NCBI GenBank assembly: GCA_018398585.1
Contig: JAGTTD010000010.1
Span: 4,233,501 to 4,297,500, forward strand
DNA from: Simmondsia chinensis
Lineage: Eukaryota; Streptophyta; Magnoliopsida; Caryophyllales; Simmondsiaceae
DNA length: 64,000 nucleotides
Direction of reading: 5' to 3'
The first letter of the stretch is position 1; each line of letters opens with the position of its first letter. Both the position numbers and the translations under genes were made by a program. Under the pieces are notes generated by a model that was not told where the DNA came from, ran no database searches, and worked only from the letters and a program-made list of their open reading frames with translations. This document shows positions 861 through 54,233 of this stretch, piece after piece.

Positions 861-1100
861 CGCATGTAAGATCTTTCCTTTTCTTGCTTGTTTGCTTTTA
901 CCTTTTGCTCTGGTTGCTATGCTCCCATGCTTACATGTTTCGTGATTGCATGTTTACATGCTTATTTGCTTGCATGCTTACATGCTCAGTTGCCCACATG
1001 CTCACATGCTTGACATGATTTTCTTGATCTCTACACTTTACATGTTCTTTATACATGTTGTACATGCTCTACTTACAAGCCATTCTTAACTATCAACTAT

Positions 1101-1229
1101 CAGGTTGGGGGTCCTAGGAAACAGCATCTCGTTAGGGTCTCACCCTGAGGGGGTAGGCTGCGTACATCCCACCCCTCCCAGACCCTGCATACGCGGGAGC
1201 CCTTGAGGAACTGAGACTGTTGTTGTTGT
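1101..1229 (+). mobile_element. SINE copy 1 (Au-like body, no 5S head)
   Basis: Starts with AGGTTGGGGGTCC, contains the conserved core GGCTGCGTACATCC, then GACCCTGCATACGCGGGAGCC, and ends in a (TTG)n tail. It begins where the 5S head would join in the composite copies, so it is either 5'-truncated at that junction or a headless relative. Confidence 0.8.
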
Positions 1230-3284: not shown

Positions 3285-3653
3285 TGATATTCAATCAAAT
3301 AGAGAGTAACTTGAACTAGTGCAGCATAGAATCGAACATTCACGAGAAAATCCACCGGCCTGCGGCAGGTAACTTCCTTTGATTAATGAATGGAACTCTA
3401 ATTGATTAGCCAAAAAAGAGTTGAGAATTTGAAGATGATAATATTTGTTCAGTTGTTGTTTTGACTGCTTGATTCTGCACAAAACCGCCATTTTTGAACG
3501 GATTTTTGGTCCGAAAATTCAGATGAAAGCTTGTTAATCGAATCAATCCTTTTACTACTTTGAGTAGATTTTGGCAGAGATTGTGCTGTGGTTTGTAAGG
3601 ATTAGCTAGTGAACCTACTGAAACACTGCACTCTTCGATGCCTCATGGCAGAA

Positions 3654-3811
3654 GAGTGTGTGTTTGAACCCTTGGATTTGGCAGTTTTTCTCTCTCGCGA
3701 TAAGAACTAAAAAGGAAAAGTAATAGAAGGGACGAGTGCAATGTTTTAGTAGAATTTGATACAATCACGAGAGAGAAAAACTGCCAAATCTAAGGGTTGA
3801 AACACACACTC
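3654..3811. repeat. Near-perfect 48-bp inverted repeat (hairpin)
   Basis: The left arm 3654-3701 and right arm 3764-3811 are reverse complements with only a few mismatches, separated by a 62-bp loop. The arms contain GGATTTGGCAGTTTTTCTC and its complement. A further element, CACTGCACTC at about 3624, is complementary to GAGTGCAATG in the loop, giving a competing fold. It could be a small-RNA precursor or a short foldback element. Confidence 0.75.
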
Positions 3812-4169
3812 AACCCGCACAACAACCTACAACAGACAAAAGCCAACATCACAGCTAGAAGCATGGAGAAAAGAAAGTTTATCTAGAAACATAAAACCTT
3901 TCTAAAAATTAAATCAAAGGCTTAACTCCTCACTTTTAAAAGGTAAAATGATCATAAATTGCTAATTGGAGCAAAGTGATAGATTTTTTAAAAGTTAAAG
4001 GGTTAAGCGAATGATTTTATTTGTAGAGAGAGTTTTTTGTAATTGAAGCAACAGATAGGGGTTTTTTTGTAATTTGTACTATAATATAACTAGTATATGT
4101 AACAATAATAAATTGTATATATAAATTTACATATTTCACAGCAAAATTTTATCGTACCATCTACTTTGC

Positions 4170-9518: not shown

Positions 9519-9523
9519 AGTTT
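9519..9523. other. Target-site duplication AGTTT (left, chromovirus 1)
   Basis: The five bases AGTTT precede the LTR and recur exactly at 14802-14806 after the 3' LTR, as expected for retroviral-type integration. Confidence 0.85.
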
Positions 9524-9958
9524 TGATACAAGAATGATTCCTCCCACCTTGGCATCATGCCTAGTCACCCCGCCAAGTTCCAAGCTAGTCCATCCCCTGT
9601 CCCTGATTTCAGCACCTGGCGTTTCGCCCAGTAGCAGCAGCAGCAACGGCTTAATGCCGCATCAGTAGTAGATATTTTGCTAAGATATTTTTTAGATATT
9701 TTCTCTAGATATTTTGCCTATATATAGCTAAGGATTAGCTAGAATTAGGGTTTCTTTATGTTGATTAAGTGTGCTTACCTTCTTCTTCTCCCCAAACCCT
9801 AAATTTTATGTCTTCTCCCCTTTCTTAGTCCTTGTAATCCTCCATTTTGGAGTGATTTTATCCTAATATATATACAAATACACACAACGGGTGCCTCGTA
9901 GCCCTAAATTGCTTGATTATCCATTGATTTGGGATATATTATATATAGTATCGTATCA
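9524..9958 (+). repeat. 5' LTR of chromovirus 1
   Basis: 435 bp, from TGATACAAG to ATCGTATCA. Pairs with 14357-14801. Shared landmarks are CTTGGCATCA, CCAAGCTAGTCCATCCC, CTAGAATTAGGGTTTC and ATACACACAACGGG. Confidence 0.9.
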
Positions 9959-9960
9959 AT

Positions 9961-9972
9961 TGGTATCAGAGC
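9961..9972 (+). promoter_or_regulatory. Primer-binding site (Met-tRNA) of chromovirus 1
   Basis: TGGTATCAGAGC, two bases after the 5' LTR. This matches the 3' end complement of plant methionine tRNA, the common primer of these elements. Confidence 0.9.
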
Positions 9973-10022
9973 AAGCCCATCCTTGGCCCTAATAATTGTT
10001 GAGCTGTGTTTGGATTTCAAAA

Positions 10023-11037
10023 ATGGCAGAGGGGACAAGAGCTCAAGTGACCCTGAGAGAGATGGAAGAAAGCACTAGAGAAATGGGGGAATCCAATGAT
10101 CGGTGCCATATCGCCATGGAGAGGATGTTTAGTGACTTCCGGGACGAGATGTGGGAGATCGTTAATGGGCTCTCTATGCAAGTCGCCGGGATTGCCCATC
10201 TGGTGAATGACAGGCTCAGACCACCAGCTTCGAATTCTAGCACTGCACCACCGTCCCCCCAAGCAAGTGAAGTGGGAGAAATGCCACCTACCAATGTACG
10301 AGGTAACTATCAGCCCCCCACTCATCTCACTAAGATTGATTTCCCTAGATTTAGTGAAAATGGTGTGGAGGGATTGGATTCATCATTATGAGAGGTACTT
10401 CGTTATCGATAGAACCCCTGATGACATGAAGGTCATGTACGCCAGCGTAGCCTTAGAGGGTGACGCCCAGGATTGGCACGACTCCTTTGAGGAATCATGG
10501 CCTAAAGACGAGGTAGTGTCTTGGGAGGTTTACGCGCCCAGAATTCGGGCAAGATTCGCCAAGTCCTCTGACAGCTCCCTCACTGAACTCATGAATCTTC
10601 GCCAGACGAGTAATGTTGGTGAGTACTTAAGCAAATTTTAATCTCGGGTGAATAAGTGTGGGCTAATTAAGGAATTCCAAGCCCTCTGCGGATGCTTCCT
10701 GCCAATCCCTCACCTCACCATTCCCACCGGCTCTTACTGCCAACAGGCGATACTACCACACCCCCCCGAGGACAGTTGAGCTTGACCCCAGCTAAACTTG
10801 ATAACCTCCGCACTCGAAATCTCTGTTTTTACTGCCATGAACACTTCACGCCAGGACATCGTTGCCCTATGCGCAATCACGCCAAGGTATTCTGGCTGGA
10901 AGCAGAAGAAGAAGAACTGTTGGCTGATTCAGTTTTACGTGAATTAGAACCGGATCCCGACCCGAGCCCAGAACCCCACATTTCCATTCACGCATTGGAA
11001 GGAATTGCCCAATGCCAAACCATGAGGGTTAAGGGGT
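10023..11037 (+). pseudogene. gag of chromovirus 1 (broken)
   Basis: Starts at the ATG at 10023 just after the primer-binding site. The first frame runs to a frameshift near 10350, where the reading moves to the frame with ALEGDAQDWHDSFEESW and FAKSSDSSLTELMNLRQ, the usual capsid region. Stops fall at 10639 and in the stretch before 10692. The nucleocapsid part has the zinc knuckle CFYCHEHFTPGHRC. At least two frame changes separate these parts, so no full gag product is possible. Confidence 0.8.
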
Positions 11038-11044
11038 AATGCCA

Positions 11045-14000
11045 CAAACATTCACTAAGTATTCTTATAGATAGTGGCAGAACCCATAACTTTTTGGATG
11101 CCAACCTTGCACGACTGCTAGGATACTTCATTAACGGCGCCATTCAACCCATAGTTATAGTGGCTGATGGCAAGCAGGACTTTTGTTCCGGTATATGCCG
11201 TCACTTTACTTGGCGCCTACTGAATGTGCACATTACTTCTGATATGTTGCTCATTCCGCTATCCGGGTGTGATATGGTTCTCGGAAGCCAATGGCTGTGC
11301 ACCCTTGGTAAAGTCACTTGGGATTTTTCGGAGTTATTGATGGAGTTTACTCTTCAAGGGCACCGTTATACCCTTTGCGACATCCACTCTTCTCCTCTAA
11401 AGGCAATCAATGACAGCAAGCTGACTTCTCTTCTCTCTACTCCGGCATCCTTCTTTGCCTTCTCAGTCACTACCACATCGAACTTGCCATCTTTGTTTGC
11501 AGTTCAGATGGATCCGCCTGATCAATCTGATCCGCCAGAATTGCAAAGACTTCTGGCCAAACATGATGATGTTTTTGCCACCAATCCAGATGTATAGCCT
11601 TCTCGACCGTTATTTGATCACCGAATCCTGGAGGGCAGCAACCCCGTCAATATCAGGCCATTTCGTTATTCGCTATTCCAAAAGGATGTCATCGACTCTA
11701 TGATCATAGAAATATTGCAGGCTGGCATTATTCAAAACAACACCTCACCATTCACTTCACCGGGTGTCCTCGTTAAGAAGAAGGATGGAACTTGACACCT
11801 TTGCGTGGACTACAGAGCCCTTAATAAGATGACCGTTAAGGATAAGTTCCCTATTTCGATCGTTGAAGTGCTGTTTGATGAGTTAGATGGGGCCTCATAC
11901 TTTTCGAAGCTAGACCTTAAATCCGGTCATTGGCAAATTCGAATGGCAGCTACTGACATTCCCAAAACGGCTTTTCGAACACACTCGGGGCATTATGAAT
12001 TCAGCGTGATGCCTTTTGGCTTGTCTAATGCTCCATCCACCTTTCAGAGTTTGATGGATGAGGTTTTTCGGCCGTATATACGAAAATTTGTTCTCGTTTT
12101 TTTTATGATATCCTTGTATTTAAATAAACCTGGCCAGATCATGTTTGTCATTTGGAGTTAGACTTATGAGTGCTTCGCACCAGTCACTTGACTGCCAATC
12201 GCACCAAGTGCACCTTTGGCGCTCGTCGCATGGAATACCTGGGACACGTCGTCTCTGGTGAGGGCGTCTCCGCTTATCAGAGAAAGCTTGAGGCTCTCGC
12301 CAATTGGCCACGCCCTCAAACCCTGAAACAACTCCGCGGATTCTTCGGGCTATCCAGCTTTTACCGACGATTCATTGCCCATTATGGCACCATAGGCAGG
12401 CCCTTGACATACCTTCTTCCCAAGGATAACTTCTTTTGGACTTCGGAAGCTGAAGACACTTTCACTCGCTTGAAGAACACCTTGACTTAAGCCCTTTATT
12501 GGCTCTTCTAGACTTTACCAAACCATTCATCATTGAGATCGTTGCATCTGGAACAGGCATTGGCGCTGTCTTGATGCAAGAGGGTCGCCTCTTGGCATAT
12601 ATCAGTCGTACTCTAGCGCCCCGCCATCAAGGCATGTCTGTTTATGAAAAGGTGCTACTGGCTATAGTTTTTGCCGTGGAAAAATGGGAACAGTACGTCA
12701 CAGGACACCATTTTACCATACGTACAGATCAGCAAAGTCTAAAGTTTCTGCTTGAGCAACAATCGACTTCTTCTCTTCAACACTTGTGGCTTTCCCACTT
12801 GATCGGCCTCAGTTATGACATCATGTACAAGAAAGGTTCTAAAAACTGAGCCGTCGACGCTCTCTCTCGCCTTTCAGGAATGAAAGTTCTATGTATGGCG
12901 TTATAATCCACCTCTTCAGATTTCATGACAAGGTTGATTGCATCGTGGTCAAAGGACCCAACCCTTGCACGCATTATTTCTGACAAGGAAGCAGAACCTC
13001 TTTCTCACCCAAGGTATTCTTGGCACCAGGGTCACCTGCATTACAACGGTAGACTTGTTGTGGGCAATGACCCCTCTCTTCGCCAAGACAATCTTCTTTG
13101 GCTTCATGACTTCGCTCAAGACGACCATTCTGGAATTAATGCCACTTATCATCGAGTGAGACCTTTATTCTACCAGAAGTGTCTTCGCCAAGACATCACC
13201 AAATGCATCCGCCAATGCGCAGTTTGTCAGCAAAACAAGTACGAAACCGTGGTGCCAACTGGACTACTCCAGCCCCTTCCCGTCCCCACTTCAATCCGGA
13301 ATAGCATATCTCTGGACTTCATCGAGGGACTGCCACCATCCAAGGGCGACTTTGTTATTTTTGAGGTCGTTGACCCTCTCACTAAGTATGCCCACTTTAT
13401 GTCTCTCGCTGCTATTATGGTTGCTCATCTTTTCTTAGATCAAATCTATTGCCTTGGTTACCAAAGACAGCCATCAGTGATCAAGACCCCGTTTTTACAA
13501 GCATCTTTTGGGGTGAACTCTTTTCCCACCTAGGGACACACCACAACCTCTCCTCATCGTATCACCCGCAATCTAATGGTCAGATAGAGGTTCTCAACTG
13601 TTGTTTAGAGACCTACTTATGATGCATGGTGAGTGAACGACCTCGCCAATGAGCCCACTGGCTTCCCTTGGCAGAATGGTGGTACAACACCACCTTCCAC
13701 TCTTCAGCTAAAGCTTCACCTTTCGAGCTACTCTATGGAGAACCACCTCCCATCCATCTTCCTTACTTACCAGGCGAGTCCCCGGTTGAGAAAATTGGTC
13801 GCAGTTTGTAGCTCGAGAAGAGATCACCAGCTGCCTTCGCCACCATCTCCTATGAGCTCAGAACCGAATGAAACAAATGGCTGATCGCCAACGCACTGAT
13901 AGAGAGTTTCAGATAGGCGATTATGTGTGGCTAAAACACCAATCTTACCACCAGCAAAGTGTGGAGTCCAGGCGTTTCCACAAACTAGCACCCCGGTACT

Positions 14001-14300
14001 TCGGCCCTTACCGCATCCTGGATCGGATAGGCACTGTTGCTTACAAGCTTGATCTTCCGTCTCACGCCGCTATCCATCACACCATTTCACGTGTCTTTAC
14101 TCAAACGTTGTTTCTTCGTTCTTGCTACCAGCACTTCTTTGCTAGACACTTGGCCCCCTGCTGCAGCCCCGCTTCAGCCCGTTGCCATTCTAGATCGTCG
14201 TTTGGTCAAGCGTCACAGAATTGCCGCCACTCAAGTCCTAGTCCAATGGGTTGGTCAAAGTGTTGATGATGTTACGTGGGAGTACCTGCATGACTTCTAG
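11045..14300 (+). pseudogene. pol of chromovirus 1: protease, RT, RNase H, integrase, chromodomain (broken)
   Basis: Protease: LIDSGRTHNFLD around 11070 keeps the D-S-G triad. [17 protein letters not shown] and [13 protein letters not shown] at 11900-12060; the catalytic aspartate-pair motif is lost at a frameshift near 12100. RNase H: 12499-12849, including IRTDQQSLKFLLEQQ and a stop just after KKGSKN. Integrase: 12925-13533, with a CAVCQQNK zinc motif and SISLDFIEGLPP; later integrase parts are scattered over frames to about 13870. C-terminal region: 13868-14300, ending with the chromodomain piece VLVQWVGQSVDDVTWEYL. In-frame stops at 11595 and 11793 add to the damage. Confidence 0.85.
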
Positions 14301-14356
14301 CTCTACTTCCCTACTTTTAATTCTCGAGGACGAGAATCCTCTCAAGGGGGCGGCAT

Positions 14357-14801
14357 TGATATAAGCACTATTCCTTCCAACTTGGCATCACGCCTAGTCA
14401 CCCCACCAAGCTCCAAGCTAGTCCATCCCGTGTCCCTGATTTTAGCACCTGGCATCTCGTCTATTAGCAGCAGCAACGGCTTAATGCCACGTCAAGAATA
14501 GATATTTTGCTAAGATATTTTTCATATATTTTCTCTAGATATTTTACCTATATACAGTTAAGGATTAGCTAGAATTAGGGTTTCTTTATATTGATTAAGT
14601 GTGCTTATCTTTTTCTTCTCCTCCAAACCCTAAATTCTACGTCTTCTCCCTTTTTCTTACTCTTCGTAATCTTCCATTTTGGAGTGATTTTATTTTAATA
14701 TATATACAAATACACACAACGGGGCAACCGTTACTACCCCGTAGCCCTAAATTGCTTGAGTATCCATTGATTTGAGCTAGATTCCATTTAGAATCATATC
14801 A
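14357..14801 (+). repeat. 3' LTR of chromovirus 1
   Basis: 445 bp, from TGATATAAG to AATCATATCA, paired with 9524-9958. It is preceded by the purine-rich tract TCAAGGGGGCGGCAT (14342-14356) and followed by the duplicated AGTTT at 14802-14806. Confidence 0.9.
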
Positions 14802-18481: not shown

Positions 18482-18805
18482 GTGGATAATGCATAAGCCC
18501 ACCTTATATCTTGTGCTTAACAACAAACAACAATAGCAATCCAGTGCCTCAAAGAGGCTCCCGCGAAGGCCGGGTCTGAGAGAGTAAGATGTACGCACCA
18601 TTACCTCCACAAGGTGCTACCTTGTAGAGAGGTTGTTTTCGAAGGGCTCACAACCCTAAAAAATCCCTATTGAAAGTGGGGGCAGTTGAGATTCGAACTT
18701 GTGATCTCTTGGTCAACAAGGCTCTGATACCATGTTAAGGAACTAACTGTTCAAAAAGCTTAAGCTAATGATTTTGAAGGACCATGAATGACTTTATATT
18801 AACAA
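18482..18805 (-). mobile_element. Small TRIM (family B), - strand, interrupted by a SINE
   Basis: On the - strand an LTR-like end GGTTCCTTAACA-type sequence (18733-18800) is followed directly by the primer-binding site TGGTATCAGAGC (complement at 18721-18732). Internal sequence with AAGTTCGAATCTCAACTG and CCCCACTTTCAATAG continues to the SINE at 18521-18655 and resumes beyond it to 18482. No coding capacity. Confidence 0.65.
18521..18655 (-). mobile_element. SINE copy 3 (Au-like body)
   Basis: On the - strand the 5' part contains TCGAAAACAACCTCTCTACA and AAGGTAGCACC, then GGTGCGTACATC, GACCCGGCCTTCGCGGGAGCC, and a TTG-rich tail. It lies inside the TRIM copy 18482-18805, so it arrived later. 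Confidence 0.8.
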
Positions 18806-22600: not shown

Positions 22601-25600
22601 CCTCCTCTACTGGACGAAGGCTTAATTATATTTATTGTGTTGCAGACATGCTGGTAAGGGAATGATGGCTTTGCCTAGGAGAAGCACTTCATCTTCTGAT
22701 GCTTGTGGAATAATCGATGTCATTTTACTGCAAAAATGACCTAAATCATTGTGCAGGACTTTTGTGTGATAACTACATATTGTTTAAGGACTTGTCTTGA
22801 GGTCTGACCTTAGGTCATTGAACTGCCATGGTTCTTTAGTTGTGGCTCGTCCTTCCATATATTTTTACTGTTAAAAGATTTCAAACTGTTTTCCTCTGCT
22901 TCCTGTTCAAGTCACCTTTAGCACAACTCAACCATATTCTGCAAAATGGTTTGAGTTCCGTTACGTGTGAAACTCTTTCCTTCCATTCTTTGTGATGACC
23001 GATGCGTTCTGACAACCTTTTAACCCCCTATCCCTGCTTTTTTCCTTCTTTGACTCTTCCATTGTTTTTTGGCCTATTATAAATACCCTTCTAATTCTTG
23101 ACCAGCCTGTAACCTATGCAAACTCTATGAATTTAGATGCTGATCCACTTCAACAGTTGTATAACCGTATTGCTGCAGAAACTATTTTATTGAAGAATCG
23201 AATTCTCATGCTTGAATTTTGGTTTTGAATTGATCTCGTTTTTTACCGTTGGATTTAAGGTTCTAGTATATATGTAGAACTTTCTCGTATTTCTTTCTTA
23301 TCCCCTTTCCTGATGTTTCACACTTTAGTTCCTTTTAAGTGGATATTGGGCTCTAGCAGATTATAGCTAATCTGCCTGCCTTGTTGCATAACAATGATAT
23401 TTAGGAATTTCTATCCTGACGTTGATATCAGTCATGTTATTCGAGCAGGTTGGTTAAGTTATATCTTATGTCTATAGTGATCTTCTAGTATTCTCATTTG
23501 CCAAATTTGTCCTCCCAAGTTAACTTCATGCAGTTCCCTGCAGGGTATGGCTGACTTTAATGCAAGTAGTGGAGCACAATATGCTGCTATTTCAGGATTT
23601 GTTAATTGATGATACTCGGCTGTCTTAAGCATTTTCCAAACGATAACATGCATGTTGTTATTTCTTTTATCATGAACATTCCAAGTTCGATCCTTGTTAT
23701 CAGATTATACTGTTTTGCGGTTTTCAATATAATGCAGAAGGCACAAGGACAAGAAGGAAGAAGCAGCAGAGCCGGAGGCTGACCCTGAACGGGATCAAAG
23801 AACAGTCTTTGCTTATCAGGTAAAATATGATGCTAGACACATTTATATCAGTGTTTGAATATCCATATTTTTGTTTTCTCTTCCTTGAACGCATTCTGCC
23901 CATTGCTTTGACAGCTTCCTTTGAGGGCAGACGAGAGAGATGTCTATGAGTTCTTTTCTAGAGCAGGCAAGGTGAGAAGTATACTGTGGAGTCATGCATC
24001 ATTTTTTTCCAGCCTTCGTGCATTGAGTACTTGTATATTGATTTCCCAGAGGGTCTTCATGCGTTATGACATATATTCAAGTTGAAGATCACTACCTGAA
24101 CGATAATCATTGATGTTTTAAATGCTTTCAAGCTCTCACAACAATGGTTCTGATTGATGAATTTTGGAACATGTTTTTATTGATGTGCACTGTTCCACTA
24201 TCAACTATGAACGATGGCATTTCACAGTCAGTTCACAGCCTGTATGAATATATCTAATGTGGACTTTGTTATGTGGCTGACTAGAGTTGTGGCCAAGACA
24301 TTCCTGACTCCACCCTTTGGTCAGAGAGAGATAGAGAGTTGTGCTTAGGAAAAGTCCTACTTTCTTTCTGAACAATCTGCTCATGTAGGTGCGAGACGTG
24401 AGGCTAATTATGGATAGGAATTCAAGACGCTCCAAGGGAGTTGGGTAAGTTTCACTCACACTCAACTTGCTCTAAGTTACTGTTTGAATTCTTTCCAGTA
24501 ATGGTATTGTATATTTCTGTGTTCAACATTCTGTAGTAGTGATGCTCCTGAAGCTATCATCAGCGCATGAAGCCTCTACAATATTGTTATGCACTATCGA
24601 ATTGTCTTGTTCATAACTTTTGTGATCAATATGTATATACGACAACAATTGAAACTCGTTATATTTGATGCTTGTATTGAAGTTGGATTTGTGCCTCAAA
24701 AATAGGAATTCTTGTCCTTATTTTTCTTATTTAGTACACACTATTTTTGCAGGTATATTGAGTTTTATGATGTTATGTCTGTTCCCATGGCTATAGCACT
24801 TTCTGGTCAGCCTCTTCTTGGTCAGCCGGTGATGGTTAAACCGTCAGAAGCTGAGAAAAACCTGGTCCAGTCTACAGCTGCATCTGCTACAGTTGCAGGG
24901 ACGGCTAGGAGGCTGTATGTTGGCAACTTACATGCTAACATGACAGAGGAACAACTTCGCCAGGTAATTATATTAGTAGCAATATTTTGTAATTTCATTT
25001 TTGGCCGTCATGTTTGTTACTGCCCTTTCAAATGGCAATTTTATGGGGCTGAAGATGAGCATTTATCATTGTTATGGTTCTCTTTGCTGGCCAATGGAAG
25101 TATTAAATTTTGTATGCTTTAGATTCTATCTATGCACTAGTAGGTTTTAACTGTTTTAACATCTTAGATCAATAGTTATTAGTCATTTATTTTCCTGTTT
25201 TGACTTTCAGCAGTTGATGCACATCTGTATTTGCAGGTCTTTGAACCATTTGGCACTGTAGAACTCGTTCAATTACCTCGGGATGAGACAGGGCACTGCA
25301 AAGGTTATGGTTTTATCCAGGTGAACCTGCTGGAAACCCTTAAAAGTTCTGTACAGGTTGTGGAGATTACACAAAGACCTAGTATTGGATAGATGTCAAA
25401 GAACCAATTGCCCCAACAGAAAAGCTCCATGAGTAGTTCTATATTTAAGATGCCTCCTTACACGAATATCAATCGTATTTGAAGTGTGGATAATGCATAG
25501 GCCTAATTTATACCTTGTATTGAAATAAAATTAATATGAAGAATGTGGGGCTATTGGGATTCAAACTTAGGACTTCTTAGTTGAAGAAGTTATGATACCA

Positions 25601-28600
25601 TGTTAAGGAACGAACATCCTAATAGTTCATACTGATAGGTGAAGATTTAAGAATGATCATATTCAGTTCTAGATTGGATAGAGGTTTATTGAGGAGTTTC
25701 CTTTCATTACTCCCCATAGATGATGGGACGAGGGATACCAATTGGTGGCTTCAGTTTAGAGTCAAGATCTGTTCTAAATTGTTATCTGAGTTGCATTTGA
25801 ATAATAAGAAAAGACAGGGTTTAGAGATCATATTCTGGGGCACACCTTTGGCGGCAACTGCTATACTTTACTGGTTCATTTCTCACCATGGTTCCTTTGG
25901 CGCATAGGCTGACCAGCTGTCGATATTGTGCAGTTTGCTCGCATTGAAGATGCTAAAGCTGCGCAGAATTTAAATGGACAGTTAGAGATTGCTGGTCGGA
26001 TGATCAAGGTGACTTACTGTGCTTTACTCTCCCTTTTCTGTTGAAAGAGATACCATTCAAACATTCGTTTGAGATGTTAGGTTGTTCGGTTTTGGTTTCA
26101 AAAAATATGCAACCCAGTTGAACTTCCTGTTTATTTATCTGGTTTTGTTCTTTAATTTTACAATAGATCTTTCTTTCCCTTGTGAACTGTCAAGTTTGAC
26201 TTGCATGATGGTTCAGAGAATAGAATCTTAATCTATCAGCCATTACAAGTAATCAATTTGGGGACGAGAGTTCCTTTGGGCATGGGACTATGTAGCGGGG
26301 TCCTTTAGAGAGTTGACCTGTTAATATCCAAATGATGGTGCCGTGGTGGTTTTTACAAGGTTCTTAATGTATTAATGGTTAATGGAGAGAAAAACATGCT
26401 GCTTTATCTGCTTGCCTCTGCATTTTGCTTATATTTTTTGTTATCATTTTATGACTTCCTGGGAAGTCCTCACCTTCAGGTTGGGGGCACTCGGAAATAA
26501 CCTCTCTTCAGGTTAACACCCTGAAGGGGGAAGGCTGCGTACATCCGGCCCCTGCCCACCCCCGACCCTGCGTAGGCGGGAGCCCTTGAGGCATTTTTTA
26601 TCTTATGATCAATACAATGGATGACCTTCTTGTACCTGTTTGTTTGAAGCACACCATTCTCTACTTCGGGTTGAAAAATGAGATGGCTCCGCATTAAAAA
26701 TTCATTTTAATATTGTTGCAATGAAAAATATTTTTGAATCGTTAATCTCTTTTACTTTCAGGTGTCGGCTCTCACTGATCAACCTGGTATGCAAGAAGCT
26801 GGGGCAAACACGGGTGATTTGGATGACGATGAAGGTGGTGGCTTGGTGAGTGAAACCTTTTTGTTTTCTTCTTCTAGTTCTCTCTGTTTTTTTGTTTGCT
26901 TGTATCTTTATGTGTGGGTGGGGGGAGGGGGGGCTTGGGGTTAAGTTTGCGTACTTGCTGTCACAAGGTTTAGTTGGCTGTGAATGGTAACTGAAATCGC
27001 TGTCATGTAAGTGTTACAACTTGAAATAATCTAAAGACACTGGATGTCCTTATCACCTACCTATCAATGTTATTATCACTCTATTTCCCTTACATTTCAG
27101 GGATGACCCTTTACACTGGCTTTGCTTTCAGTTTTCTTATCCAAAGTTTCTGAAGTGTCGATCTAATATCATGTCTGTGTATCTTTTGGAGGTTTGGATC
27201 TGTATATGTTTTCTCTCGTTGTCCTATTTCTGTTTGGTTATCTTAGTATTGATCAATAGGCGAGGATAACTTACGATCTTTTATGATTCAGTCTTTAAAT
27301 GCAAGCTCTCGAGCGATTCTCATGCAGAAGTTGGATCGCAGTGGCACGGCCTCCAGGTTGGTATCTTTCAAGCCGCTGGTTAGGGAAGGCTAAAAACTTT
27401 AATATGTGCTAAGCTTTTGCTGCTAGAGAATAGAATAAGTGGAACTTAAGTCAGTCCAAGATGATGAACGTGCTCATACCTTTACTTGACATAGGTTAAT
27501 ACTCATGTCGGTCCCTAATTTTCCCCCAATTCTTATTTTGGTCCACAGTGCTTTTGTCTCGCTTGAGTCAGGGACCAAAAACAGGAAATTAATTTTGTTG
27601 ACTTGGCTTATCTGCATCAGTCACTTATCTTGCCACGTCACTGAAGGAAATATGTAATTACACAATGGTCCATTTGCTCGGATGACATGGCTTATGTGCA
27701 TGATGTGGATAAGCCAAGTCATTGAACGAACTTTTTATAGTTGGGTCCTTACTGTGCAAAATAAACTTCAAGGACAAAAATAGGAATATGGTAAAACTTC
27801 AGGGACCAAATTAATAAGTATTAAACCCAAGCATCTCCATAGTTAGGCGCGGCCCGCCTGAGGCCTGGGCCTGGCCCAGCAGAGCCGGCGTGGGCCCAGG
27901 CTCGGGTCTGGGCTGGGCCAATTTTTTTTCATATATATATGTGTGTATATATATACACACACATATACATAAAAATAATCATTTTGACCAAAAAAAATAA
28001 TTATAATTTATTAATAAATAATATAACATACAATACAATCATAATAGTGCCATATAAAATTACAAATGTATTTTATAAAATAAAATGTATTGTAACTTGT
28101 TAAAAAAAATATAACTATAATAATATAATACACATTCACTAGCACTAATTTTTGGCCTGGGCTTGCCCCAAAAAAAGAGAATGGTCCTTGATCTTAATGA
28201 TTAAGAATTAAGCTGATCTTTTAATTATGTAATTGACCTGTGCTCTGAAAAGAGTTGTGTAATTGACCTGTCATCTTGTTTGCTTCCTTCATGATGCAGT
28301 GTTACTGGCCCGCTTGGCACCTCAGCTGTTAACAACAACGGGCTTGCAGCAGCACCTGCGCCAATTCTAGGTGCTGGGCAAGTAGTTTCACCATTGGTTC
28401 CTCCCGTTCCCACTCTTGGTGCAGGACTCTCTGTTCCGGCAGTTGACACTATCGGTGTCCCCAGCGAATGCTTACTATTGAAGAATATGTTTGATCCAAC
28501 TCTGGAGGTGGGGAAGACAAAATAGAGATCATACTAGTTTCTTTCTAGTGCATTTCTCATTTTCATGCTTGTGTTTTCTTTTTTATTTCAGACTGAACCT

Positions 28601-32135: not shown

Positions 32136-32552
32136 TAGGAGTAGAAAAATAACCCTTTTTCTTTAGGCTTTGTTTGGTATGGAGTTAAAGGGCGGGTTAA
32201 TCTTTAACCAAGTTTGGCTTTCCTTGAAAACCTATCCCCTTAAAAATTTTACCCCTAAAAGAGGTAATAATGTTGCACTATCCTTGGTAGTGTAACGTTC
32301 TAAATAAGGAAGAGGCGAAAACTCTTAATCTAAGAGAAAACAGACATGTAAAAGAAGGAGAGGAAAAGGCGAGGGAAGGATGGAGGGCGGGCCAAGTCGC
32401 GCCTCGTTGGTCCATCATGGATGCCGATGAAGAGGGTAAGTGATGGACACGGTCGACAAAGGGAAAGAGGAAGAAGGGAGAGAGTGGGAGAGTAGAGAGA
32501 ATCGGTATACTTTGATTTGGAAGAGAGAGAATGGGTTGGTGGTGGAGATTTA
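32136..32552. other. Intergenic sequence, nothing firm
   Basis: Contains GGCTTTGTTTGGTATGGAG near 32167, reminiscent of MITE ends but without a found partner, and a purine-rich GAGGAAGAAGGGAGAGAG stretch at 32465-32540. The 134-codon - strand frame here is low-complexity and overlaps the SINE; I do not support it as a gene. Confidence 0.4.
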
Positions 32553-32678
32553 AGGGTTCCCGCCTAAAAAGGGTATTGGGGGATGAATGTATGCAACCTT
32601 CCCTCTTCATAGTGCTATCCTGAAGAGAGGCTGTTTTCGAACGAGGACTTCCCAGGAAATCGCCTATCTTGGTGCAAA
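32553..32678 (-). mobile_element. SINE copy 7 with partial 5S-like head
   Basis: On the - strand: GATTTCCTGGGAAGTCCTCG (5S-like, about 30 bp, 32642-32675), then TTCGAAAACAGCCTCTCTTC, GGTTGCATACATTC and TTTTAGGCGGGAACCC. The terminal GTTGCACCC of the 5S head and the first ~20 bp of the body seen in copies 8 and 14 are missing, so the junction here is deleted. Confidence 0.65.
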
Positions 32679-36353: not shown

Positions 36354-36365
36354 ACATATCACCAT

Positions 36366-36574
36366 AAAGCAATAGTGGATGTATGTAGCCTTACTTTTTC
36401 AGGACGCTAGCTTAAAGAGAGGCTGTTTCTGAGAACCTTCAACTTGAGGGGTGCAACACGAGGATTTTCTAGGAGGTCACCCATTTGGGTACTACTATCG
36501 TCCAAACACGCTTAATTTCGGGGTTCTAATAGGATCAAATACTTGCGTGTTAGTACCCTGGGTGAATGATTTTG
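36366..36574 (-). mobile_element. Composite 5S-headed SINE, copy 8 (upstream of MO-A)
   Basis: On the - strand the first ~110 bases match plant 5S rRNA in order: GAACCCCGAAATTAAGCGTG, TTTGGACGATAGTAGTACCC, AAATGGGTGACCTCCTAG and CGTGTTGCACCC. Then, at the same junction as copy 14, comes the body CAAGTTGAAGGTTCTCAG, AAACAGCCTCTC and GGCTACATACATCCACTA. Flanks ACATATCACCAT at 36354-36365 and 36575-36586 form a perfect 12-bp duplication. The segment with GACCCTGC and GGGAGCC is deleted and the tail is short. It lies about 300 bp upstream of the MO-A start codon. Confidence 0.85.
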
Positions 36575-36782
36575 ACATATCACCATGACTCTCAAAATCA
36601 TTGTAGCCAAACGGACAATCATCCAGCCATTGGCGCTTTGCTCCTGCATTATTAGAATGAACAGCCCACTTGCTCTCTTCCATGGGCGACCTCTTACTTA
36701 CATCCATGGCGGCCATGCAAGTCTCAACAATGACGTACAACCTGCTGTCATCCTTTACTGTCTTTACAACTTTATGCGTTTC

Positions 36783-51700: not shown

Positions 51701-54233
51701 CCTCCAAACCATGGACCTGGCTGATAACCGTACAAAAACGAGGCTCCACATAAGAAGGCCAATAGTATATCATTTTAGTCATATATATATATTATATACT
51801 TAAATTTGTATCAAATACAGTGGAGAACACGAAGTACGTTGTTTGAAAAGAAAGGTGTTATTAGAGACACTTGCAAAAGAACTTCCAGAAGGAAGCATTA
51901 GGTATTCCTCCAAAGTGGTCTCTATTGAAGAAACTGGCCATGCTAAGCTCTTGCATCTTGCTGATGGTACCCTCCTTAAAACAAAGGTACTAAATAACAA
52001 TCTCTTATAAACTAATTATTTTTTATCATATATAATCAACATATAAAAGCAACATTCCCAGTGCCCTAAGGGCTCCCGCCTAAGCAGGGTCTAGGGGGGT
52101 GGACGTACGCAGCCTTCCCCCTTCAGGGTCCGAAGGGAGGCTATCTCTGAGAACCCCCCAACTTGAAGGGTGCAACACGAGAACTTCCTAGGAGGTCACC
52201 CATTTTAGTACTACTCTCGCCCAAGCATGCTTAACTTCGGAGTTCTAATGGGATTCGGTGCTTGCATGTTGGTACCCTCTTAGGTATATATAATCAACAT
52301 ATAAATTAGATATAGAATAAGTGTATCCTTAACATGTTATATATCTTTAAATTTCGAGTCATGGGAATAGGACCCTTCACATGTTAGACCTTTGCTCATG
52401 CAATTTGGGATCCCCGTTTTGGTCAACCAATCATGGAACCTTTACTTGTGGGACACTCTTGGCTAGTGAATATCGGTTATCCTAGTGTTTATGGTGGTAT
52501 GCGATTTATGTTCGGGCCACCCAGAGACAACGAACCACAAATCAGAACAGCAAACATACATTTGAAGGGATTGGGGAAAAATTTTGAATATCGGAATCCA
52601 CGTGGTTCAGCCGAAACCTATGTCCACAAAGGAGGAGCAACAAAAATTCATTATATAAATTAAGGATTATAATTCTTGCTTGCTCTATTACACCAGCACA
52701 AGAGTGCCCTTACCAGCCCTGACCATTTCATGGTTCAAAAACGCCAAACTTGTGGCATATTGGGAGCTACATTATGTGACAATCTTTATATAATGCCACG
52801 CTACTAACTTCAAAGATTATGTGACCGTTGGTGTGCTCAGGTGTTGATTGGGTGTGATGGGGTGAACTCAGTGGTGGCTCAGTGGTTGGAATTCAAGGCA
52901 CCTTCATATGCAGGAAGATCAGCCATTAGAGGCTATGTTGATTTCCCTCAAGGCCATGGCTATGGGTCTAAATTCCTCCAGTTCGTAGGCCAAGGAGTTC
53001 GATACGGTGTCATCCCCTCCTGCCCTACCACTCTGTACTGGTTTTTCGTTTACTCTCCCTCTACCCGAGGTATGTATAACATGCCTATACTTTAAACTTG
53101 GTGGTTCTTTTAATTAGGCAGGTTTGAATCAGTTGAGCTAAACTCGAGCTTATCAAACACTTTGTAGGGGTCAAAGTTTGTTAAGAGTACAAAACAAATT
53201 TCGAACCTTTACCCCTCAACCTCAACGTTTGGGACAACTGGTTCCTTTATATGGTATCAATATTAAATAGTTTCAGCTTAAGGTTTGAGTTGAGCATGTG
53301 CATTATTGACGTTACAAGCCCAATGGTATGTTAGAGTATAAAATCATTCCTGAACTTTCATCCATCAATTATACTTTTGGGATGGTTGGTTCCTTGATAA
53401 GCACATCAAGTTTGTAGAGTTTGAGCTTGGGTTCAGTTCATCTTGTACTCGAGCTTGACTTAGTTCAATTGAGCTTCAATCTTAGCTTCACGAGTTTAAG
53501 AGAACATTGACTCATTTAAGCTCATTTTCGAGATTGGCTCGTTTGATGTCATTGAAGGTTGACTCATCTAAGCTCAAACTCAAGTCATTTAGGGGTGCGG
53601 TTTAGATTTCGTTTAGGCTTGTTTAGATGCATGCAGTACACATATTATGTTACACTGATGCAGTTTCTATTACCTGTTAAACCAGACAAAGATATAGAAG
53701 AAAACCCAGCAAAGATGAAGCAGTTCGTGTTGAGCAATCTTGGAAACATTCCAGACAAAATAAAAAACATTATAGAAACCACAAAACTAGATGATATCGT
53801 TCATTCTCCTTTGCGATTCCGGCCCCCATGGCAACTCCTATGGGGAAACATAAGCAAAGACAACGTATGCATAGCTGGCGACGCTTTCCACCCTATGACA
53901 CCCGATCTTGGCCAAGGCGCATGCTCAGCTCTCGAGGATGCCATCGTTTTGGCTCGGTCCCTTGCCAAAGCCTTGTTGGAAACACCGGGAAGTCAAGCAA
54001 CAGGAAAGTATGCGGAAAACGAAATCGAGAGGATAGAGAATGGATTGAGAAACTATGCAAATGAGAGGAGATGGAGAGGGATTGATCTTATTACTTGTGC
54101 TTATGTTGTGGGTTCTCTACAGCAAAGCTCTAGCAAAGTGATTAGCTTCTTGAGAAGTAAAATTTTGGGACCTTTTCTCTCCGGTTTGTTGGTAAAGAAG
54201 GCTGATTATGATTGTGGAAAGTTGATAGCTTGA
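48772..54233 (+). CDS. MO-B: FAD-dependent monooxygenase, MO1/MO2 type (6 exons, 410 aa)
   Basis: Exons: 48772-48845, 49665-49811, 50746-50814, 51821-51986, 52841-53069, 53686-54233; GT-AG throughout, 1233 bases with stop. The first five exons have the same lengths as in MO-A (74, 147, 69, 166, 229). The last is one exon where MO-A has two. Motifs: GGGISG at 11-16, LIGCDGVNS at 154-162, [15 protein letters not shown] at about 292-306. As in MO-A, this is a flavin monooxygenase of unknown substrate; both products should be soluble or peripherally membrane-bound. The exon 2 acceptor is weak (ATATAAAG with A at -3). Introns carry two plain SINEs, the 5S-headed SINE, TRIM fragments and a plastid-like piece. 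The two genes are head-to-tail tandem duplicates about 4.8 kb apart. Confidence 0.93.
48890..49260. repeat. Degenerate hAT-like MITE sequence in MO-B intron 1
   Basis: Starts AGTGTAAATGAGCGGAG, a worn form of the GGGGTGTAAACGAGC end, and continues with AGCTTGAG/GAGCTAA words. Intron 2 has a similar block at 49830-50350. Confidence 0.5.
49442..49561 (+). mobile_element. SINE copy 12 in MO-B intron 1
   Basis: GAGGTAGCACTCTGTAGGG, GGCTACGTACATACTCCCCC, GACCTTGCCATGGCAGGAGCC and a TTG tail. The 5' part is worn. Confidence 0.75.
50578..50705 (+). mobile_element. SINE copy 13 in MO-B intron 2
   Basis: GGTTGAGAACCCTTCC, AAGGTAGCATCCTGTTGGGG, GACTACATGCATCTTATCC, TTGGTGGGAGCCTCTTTGAA and a TTG tail, close to the canonical Au form. 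It ends about 40 bp before the exon 3 acceptor. Confidence 0.8.
50868..50945 (+). mobile_element. Fragment of the TRIM family A LTR in MO-B intron 3
   Basis: GGATTTCACATGTGAGTTCT and GGGATAAACATATAAACCTA match the first half of the TRIM A LTR. A similar fragment is at 54262-54335, just downstream of MO-B (TTTTACATGTGAGTCTAG, GAAGAGATCAACATATAAG). Confidence 0.5.
51470..51680. mobile_element. Possible LTR-retroelement fragment in MO-B intron 3
   Basis: AAAAACAACACACAAGATTT followed by ACTGTGGTTCGGTCAAATA is a word order I associate with LTRs of plant Copia elements. No termini or coding region are seen. Confidence 0.3.
52048..52285 (-). mobile_element. Composite 5S-headed SINE, copy 14 (type copy), MO-B intron 4
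   Basis: On the - strand: a 5S rRNA-derived head of about 120 bp (CACCGAATCCCATTAGAACT, CCGAAGTTAAGCATGCTTGG, GCGAGAGTAGTACTAAAATG, GGTGACCTCCTAGGAAGTTC, CGTGTTGCACCC), then the Au-like body (TTCAAGTTGGGGGGTTCTCA, GGCTGCGTACGTCC, GGGTCTAGGGGGG in complement, GCGGGAGCCC, CACTGGG) and a short tail. Flanks ATATATAATCAACATATAAA (52028-52047 and 52286-52305) are a perfect 20-bp target duplication enclosing head and body together. The A-box and C-box regions of the 5S internal promoter are largely conserved. That such a unit is transcribed by RNA polymerase III is inference. Confidence 0.9.
52378..52770 (+). other. Plastid psaB-like insert (NUPT) in MO-B intron 4, degenerate
   Basis: 52387-52500 translates as [12 protein letters not shown] and later NIGYPSVY, resembling the N-terminal part of photosystem I protein PsaB (HAIWDP.FGQP...VNIAYSGVY). 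At 52728, CATTTCATGGTTCAAAAACG recalls the psaB stretch just after. The segment between (52510-52690) does not match what I remember of psaB, so the insert is rearranged or mutated. The 76-codon frame here is not a gene. Confidence 0.55.
53226..53630 (+). mobile_element. TRIM family B copy followed by degenerate GAGCTTG repeat, MO-B intron 5
   Basis: GGTTCCTTTATATGGTATCA (LTR end plus primer site, 53239-53258), AGGTTTGAGTTGAGCATGTGC, then a second LTR TGTTAGAGTATAAAATCATTCC to GATGGTTGGTTCCTTG at 53328-53397. From 53400 to 53630 come GAGCTTGACTTAG-type words of the hAT-like MITE family. Confidence 0.6.

Follow-up and report, generated by a model that had tools for sequence, protein, structure and literature searches.

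The 64,000-nucleotide stretch of Simmondsia chinensis DNA analysed here (contig JAGTTD010000010.1, positions 4,233,501 to 4,297,500; hereafter the window) carries, at 52048-52285 on the - strand, a single retroposed unit of 238 positions bounded by a perfect 20-bp target-site duplication, in which a head derived from the 5S ribosomal RNA (rRNA) gene precedes the body and tail of an Au-like short interspersed nuclear element (SINE). This unit belongs to a dispersed, high-copy family whose members were inserted independently and have the same anatomy, a shared 5S/body junction and defined ends. We consider it very probable that this is a plant SINE family, transcribed by RNA polymerase III (Pol III) and mobilised by a long interspersed nuclear element (LINE), a mechanism suggested by its structure. 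A 5S-headed SINE is apparently unreported in plants, with real doubt left on priority.

The 5S origin of the head was indicated by a match to the Rfam 5S rRNA model RF00001 at 52167-52279 (73.9 bits, E 9e-14, model positions 1-120), and by a gap-free alignment of element positions 12-118 with positions 12-118 of a comparison 5S sequence (95/107 identical). Element numbering equals 5S numbering from position 12 onward, while the first 11 nucleotides are not 5S-like. The first-pass annotation of this DNA had proposed the coordinates, strand and extent of the element, its perfect 20-bp flanking repeat, a 5S-derived head of about 120 bp containing the A-box and C-box, and an Au-like body and tail. 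All of these were found as described, the likeness to Au being an apparent one. Among 3000 simulated flank pairs, the longest repeat was 13 bp, versus 20 bp at the 52-kb element. Real window sequence nevertheless reaches a repeat of at least 20 bp at 9 of 2546 equally spaced positions, presumably in tandem arrays, so that the 20-bp repeat alone is strong but not decisive. It is the independent copies that decide the single-unit status of the 52-kb element.

Such copies were indeed abundant. The source genome (831,394,711 bases, 35 contigs) was searched with the 52-kb element, the best 40 of 8635 first-look candidates being scored; 41 matches were listed, of which 40 spanned query positions 1-5 to 236-238 of 238 and the last was a tail fragment. 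The near-full-length matches, at least 40 in number, are located on many contigs and are 86-90% identical to the query (100% for the window copy, which is one of them). Their alignment (the window copy and 39 others) provided a 245-bp consensus, with a mean identity to consensus of 94.0%. An exact head and junction pattern of subfamily B (see below), with 31 fixed bases, was found 154 times (77+77) in the source genome and that of subfamily A 217 times (116+101), with 0 matches in both reversed controls. The annotation's own test, namely that copies might never share the 5S/body junction, thus left its claim standing. As just 4 of the 40 aligned copies contain the exact B pattern, the true B copy number must be much larger than 154. 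The junction pattern had 0 matches in the collections of viral contigs and of genome contigs, the body pattern had 0 in viral contigs, and plasmid and phage records gave no match.

Insertion signatures were in line with this dispersal. Duplications scoring at least 9 flanked 31 of the 40 copies, versus 4.7% of 1165 mismatched flank pairs, and 28 of the 40 exceeded the 99% point of the null; a second window copy, at 36 kb, was excluded from this count. The duplications measure about 10-20 bp (median 16, 31 copies) and abut the same first element base in 23 of the 31. Short, dispersed, multi-copy elements of uniform chimeric structure, with variable target-site duplications directly at their ends, are what is expected of a SINE family.

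Other origins were considered in the light of these data. A one-off 5S/SINE chimeric pseudogene, formed by template switching at this locus and founding no family, would be compatible with the 20-bp duplication taken alone, and template switching is known to produce chimeras of other small RNAs. Yet many near-full-length copies combine the same junction with duplications of their own; the junction shared genome-wide refutes this explanation, which we regard as highly improbable. The chances of two adjacent independent insertions, placing a 5S pseudogene beside a SINE, are practically negligible: adjacency alone speaks for them, whereas one duplication encloses both head and body, and the same junction recurs at unrelated places, at 36 kb and throughout the genome, which refutes them too. 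In this respect, the chimera existed before insertion, as had been claimed from the sequence. Slightly less remote, but still very improbable, is a fragment of a Cassandra-like long terminal repeat (LTR) retrotransposon, i.e., a terminal-repeat retrotransposon in miniature (TRIM) with 5S sequence in its LTRs. Elements of this type, with their 5S sequence, occur widely in land plants (PMC10886601, PMC10853983). However, instead of short target-site duplications of fixed length, such as those of 4-5 bp described in two related TRIMs, Helenus and Ajax (PMC10886601), those observed here are long and variable. Moreover, the copies have T or TTG tails at their ends, the 5S sequence occupies the extreme 5' end, and the remainder is an Au-like SINE body. 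Visual inspection of the 245-bp consensus revealed neither paired LTRs nor a primer-binding site, no search having been aimed at them.

The abundance of the family was evaluated in a random sample of 20 regions of 10 kb (200 kb), drawn from 23 contigs totalling 736 Mb. In this sample, nhmmer returned 30 matches at E <=0.01 and 0 in reversed sequence: seven near-full-length 5S-headed copies in three regions (80-90% identical to consensus), three partial 5S-headed ones (four regions then being concerned) and, for the rest, headless body. Extrapolation gave about 29,000 near-full-length copies (bootstrap range 0 to 71,000) and 42,000 with any 5S head (4,000 to 100,000), which places the copy number no more closely than thousands to tens of thousands. 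All seven Rfam 5S matches at gathering level in these 200 kb (6 and 1) were the heads of the seven near-full-length copies. Clustering was strong, with six 5S-headed matches in one 10-kb region (L066) versus none in 16 of the 20. Calling of transfer RNA (tRNA) genes returned none in the window and none in 10 of the 20 sampled loci.

The head closely resembles the host's own 5S gene. The 5S array at 4.69 Mb on contig C8 contains one dominant 120-nt gene (64 of the 68 units read, overlapping loci being counted repeatedly). The B consensus head is identical to this gene at 102 of 109 positions (12-120), with differences at positions 17, 21, 22, 24, 79, 95 and 106, so that alignment to the species' 5S, a check proposed in the first-pass annotation, bore out the origin of the head. 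Units read in a second array, at 6.41 Mb on C8, have A24 and T106 in common with the SINE. The 5S sequences of the two arrays differ, in the units read, at positions 12, 24 and 106. T39 and A81 are common to the head and the host genes, as against the comparison 5S sequence used above. This is a weak hint that the capture may have taken place within the host's own lineage. Within the head, the consensus retains the A-box and intermediate element of the host and all but one letter of its C-box, at what we take to be the positions of these boxes on 5S (Table 1).

At least two subfamilies can be distinguished. Subfamily B, which includes the 52-kb element, has the junction GTTGCACCCCTCAGGTTGGGG and a TTGCTTTn tail (TTGC, then either T runs or TTGC-like repeats), while subfamily A, represented by four sampled copies, has the 5' end GGGTTCATTTACCAGG, the distinct junction GTTGYCAACCCTATAAGGTTGGGG and a (TTG)n tail. 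The true form of the 5S 3' end is retained in B and lost in A, and the body starts at the same AGGTTGGGG in both. A genome search with one A copy, in which the best 40 of 8552 first-look candidates were scored (candidates that surely overlap those of B), listed 41 rows, namely the query and 40 other places, 85-89% identical over most of the query.

The chimera was probably born once, by the joining of a 5S RNA to an Au-like SINE RNA through a template switch or an exchange of heads, and would have split afterwards into A and B. A single origin is favoured by a C at 5S position 79, found in three of the four A copies and in the B consensus while the host 5S units read have T, and by the common starting point of the body. 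By contrast, the different junctions favour two origins, in which A and B would have captured their 5S heads separately on the same kind of body. The 5' ends and tails also differ, B alone keeps the true 5S 3' end, and an exact pattern combining the canonical 5S 5' part with the B junction had 0 matches in the genome. We therefore keep two separate births as a serious, if rather unlikely, alternative to the single birth.

In both subfamilies, the new 5' end may have remained matched to its altered 3' partner. In A, the 5' GGGUU is able to pair with AACCC; in B, GAGGG is able to pair with CCCUC, and ACCU with AGGU. The energy of the duplex between 5' end and junction beats that of shuffles (p ~0.004 and 0.016 for B, 0.05 for A). 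On the other hand, whole-RNA folding of B was no better than shuffles (p 0.22), other B windows pair better than this duplex and, for A, a swapped-in B strand performs almost as well. With such mixed statistics, re-pairing of the terminal helix is suggestive and should be taken as a lead only; if true, it is the RNA structure of the stem, rather than its sequence, that would have been preserved.

From a mechanistic point of view, the family would most likely be transcribed by Pol III, with TFIIIA, from the A-box, intermediate element and C-box inside the 5S head, starting near the equivalent of 5S +1 and stopping at the 3' T run. B elements indeed start exactly 11 nt before position 12, that is at 5S +1 by length, though their first 11 letters do not resemble 5S. 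Such a start without 5S letters fits what would be predicted if the promoter fixed the distance at which transcription begins. The 245-bp consensus contains no internal TTTT and so holds nothing that would stop Pol III. The 3' tail of the RNA would then, most likely, be taken up by a LINE reverse transcriptase for target-primed reverse transcription, and insertion would leave duplications of about 10-20 bp. PMC3747384 describes plant RTE LINEs as terminating in (TTG)n or (TTGATG)n and Au-like SINEs as terminating in stretches of T, the partner of the latter being possibly an unidentified one; the tails of A and B resemble these two kinds.

Several observations weigh against this scenario of a Pol III-transcribed, LINE-mobilised family, or against its generality. 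A clear duplication is missing in 9 of the 40 copies, and those of the four A copies, which score 12 to 22, have no control of their own. The start at 5S +1 is true of B only, A copies beginning about 2 nt inside it by length, and the 36-kb copy has 8 nt more between duplication and head than the 52-kb copy. When an empty site was looked for, the intron that harbours the 52-kb element, in the second of two tandem duplicate monooxygenase-2-like genes, and that of its paralog were not alignable. The 40 aligned copies are the best-scoring ones, so that their ends and identity lean towards young copies. Finally, the promoter boxes of these 40 copies showed no excess of conservation over the remainder of the head (54/1399 mismatched cells versus 101/2474, p 0.67); extra conservation of the boxes was thus rejected, and selection on the promoter is not supported. 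In the seven sampled copies, the raw mismatch rate was 3.3% for the A-box, versus 10-12% elsewhere in the 5S part.

The body is also found with other heads, or with none. In the sample and in the window, many body copies lack a 5S head and start at the junction or close to it, and body and 3' domain are thereby common to elements with and without this head in the same genome. At least one such headless copy (region L074, 3306) is flanked by a duplication at that start, as judged by eye. Body copies at L066:5826 (-) and at window 1094-1222 (+) have another upstream stretch in common (TACAGGCTCTTCATGCTTACATGC...), a possible third type of head; the former shows, by eye, the duplication ATTTAGTTGTGTCA. 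At window 18528-18770 (-), the related body and tail of an Au-like SINE are preceded by a tRNA-like head (ACATGGTATCAGAGCC...GTTCGAATC), and sequences 71-75% alike to this head occur at 25547 and 43349. At 36.98-37.25 kb (+), two tandem Au-like copies share a single target site; each begins with the body and is followed by TTGATCATCC(T/G)TACTTTT. From these arrangements, the body looks like a module carrying several heads, which would make head exchange the simplest origin of the chimera.

Window copies of the 5S-headed SINE are given in Table 1. The duplication of the 36-kb copy, ATGGTGATATGT, differs from that of the 52-kb copy. Body pieces of the 52-kb element occur at 12 further window places, 9 of them with no detected 5S piece.

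Table 1. The 5S-headed SINE at 52 kb, its parts, and related copies in the window.
Feature	Position	Strand	Basis
5S-headed SINE, subfamily B copy, element positions 1-238	52048-52285	-	
Target-site duplication adjoining element 5' end	52286-52305	.	Exact 20-bp repeat
Target-site duplication adjoining element 3' end	52028-52047	.	Exact 20-bp repeat
5S-derived head	52166-52285	-	Rfam match, alignment, family consensus versus host 5S
Putative A-box region (5S 50-64)	52222-52236	-	Family consensus identical to host 5S
Putative intermediate element (5S 67-72)	52214-52219	-	Family consensus identical to host 5S
Putative C-box region (5S 80-97)	52189-52206	-	One consensus difference from host 5S, position 95
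Au-like body and 3' tail ending TGTTGC then T run	52048-52165	-	Same body without 5S head elsewhere (window, random sample)
Second copy, same 5S/body junction and 3' terminus, internal body deletion	36366-36574	-	143/179 aligned positions identical; Rfam 5S 42.6 bits
12-bp target-site duplication of 36-kb copy, 5' side of element	36575-36586	.	
12-bp target-site duplication of 36-kb copy, 3' side of element	36354-36365	.	
Relative truncated at its 5' end, body preceded by 20 bp of the 5S C-box end	26452-26593	+	Weak 5S piece, E 0.017
Relative truncated at its 5' end, body preceded by 33 bp of 5S	32551-32673	-	Weak 5S piece, E 0.0009

Regarding the surroundings, the monooxygenase-2-like tandem duplicates lie at 41.5-43.1 kb and 51.8-54.2 kb, with matching stretches 72-81% alike. 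In protein comparisons, a conserved protein joined from exon pieces was nearest, among named proteins, to Nepenthes (69%), then to Dionaea and Ancistrocladus (66%), with Beta at 66% as well; a monooxygenase had Dillenia and Camellia as its first matches, and a Ty3-type ORF had no near relative. Such matches make the host probably a member of the Caryophyllales. The window also contains a Ty3-type LTR retrotransposon at 9523-14636, whose LTR-like repeats are 87-89% alike and separated by about 4.83 kb, a second element of the Ty3 type at about 55.5-60.1 kb, diverged tandem-repeat arrays at 15.0-16.4 kb and 8.7-9.5 kb, and, at 3643-3822 (-), a long hairpin like MIR2630, well under the family cut-off and possibly a miniature inverted-repeat transposable element.

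Taken together, these results lead us to favour, on balance, a first plant lineage of 5S-headed SINEs: in one eudicot lineage, probably Caryophyllales, and perhaps twice, the host 5S would have been put before an Au-like/Angio-SINE body, giving two subfamilies that number thousands or tens of thousands of copies. In each subfamily, the terminal helix of 5S would have received new letters in its 5' strand, still able to pair with a 3' strand that is itself altered, differently in A and B. A high-copy family of this kind would extend to plants the capture of the 5S promoter by SINEs seen in animals and fungi. The coexistence, in one genome, of 5S-headed and other-headed elements on one kind of body makes it possible to test which of the two, head or tail, determines how successfully an element amplifies. 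It should also be noted that SINE heads are a trap for 5S annotation, as the Rfam matches in the random sample illustrate. Conversely, AnnoSINE discards candidates nearly identical to Rfam RNAs (PMC8825457), a filter that could hide young 5S-headed families.

With Au-like SINEs, the family apparently has in common its body and 3' region (GCTGCGTACATCC...CAGACCCTGC...GGGAGC...CACTGGG) and a short T tail. These plant Au-like SINEs reportedly include the Angio-SINE superfamily of Seibt et al. in 2020. To our knowledge, plant SINE families have tRNA-derived heads; the present one departs from Au-like and Angio-SINE families in having a 5S head instead. Among matches listed in the open-access literature (titles and abstract starts), there was no plant 5S-headed SINE, Repbase and SINEBase lying outside this comparison. 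The 5S-headed SINEs already known are zebrafish SINE3, SINE3-1_TC (Tribolium), HaSE3 (Helicoverpa), PxSE4/5 (Plutella) and the 5S-related SINEs of the fungus Aspergillus fumigatus (PMC5063351). SINE3 was described in 2020 as present in various vertebrates and some insects (PMC7245038), and promoter capture by SINEs is mentioned for animals (PMC10853983). Like these elements, the present family has a 5S head with A, intermediate and C boxes, an unrelated body, a tail and target-site duplications; in HaSE3, too, a 5S head is fused to a body and tail otherwise found in a tRNA-headed SINE (PMC3272025). Unlike the SINE3 group, it is found in a flowering plant and has a body of the plant Au-like kind. 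Its birth is expected to be independent of animal SINE3, because the head closely matches the host's own 5S. As in Cassandra TRIMs, a plant retroelement carries 5S promoter sequence; however, in Cassandra, an LTR element, the 5S sequence lies within the LTRs (PMC10886601), whereas the family described here has a head-body-tail structure with long, variable duplications. The existence of a 5S-headed plant SINE family bears on the idea, reported in the same paper (PMC10886601), that Cassandra originated from a SINE3 element inserted into an LTR.

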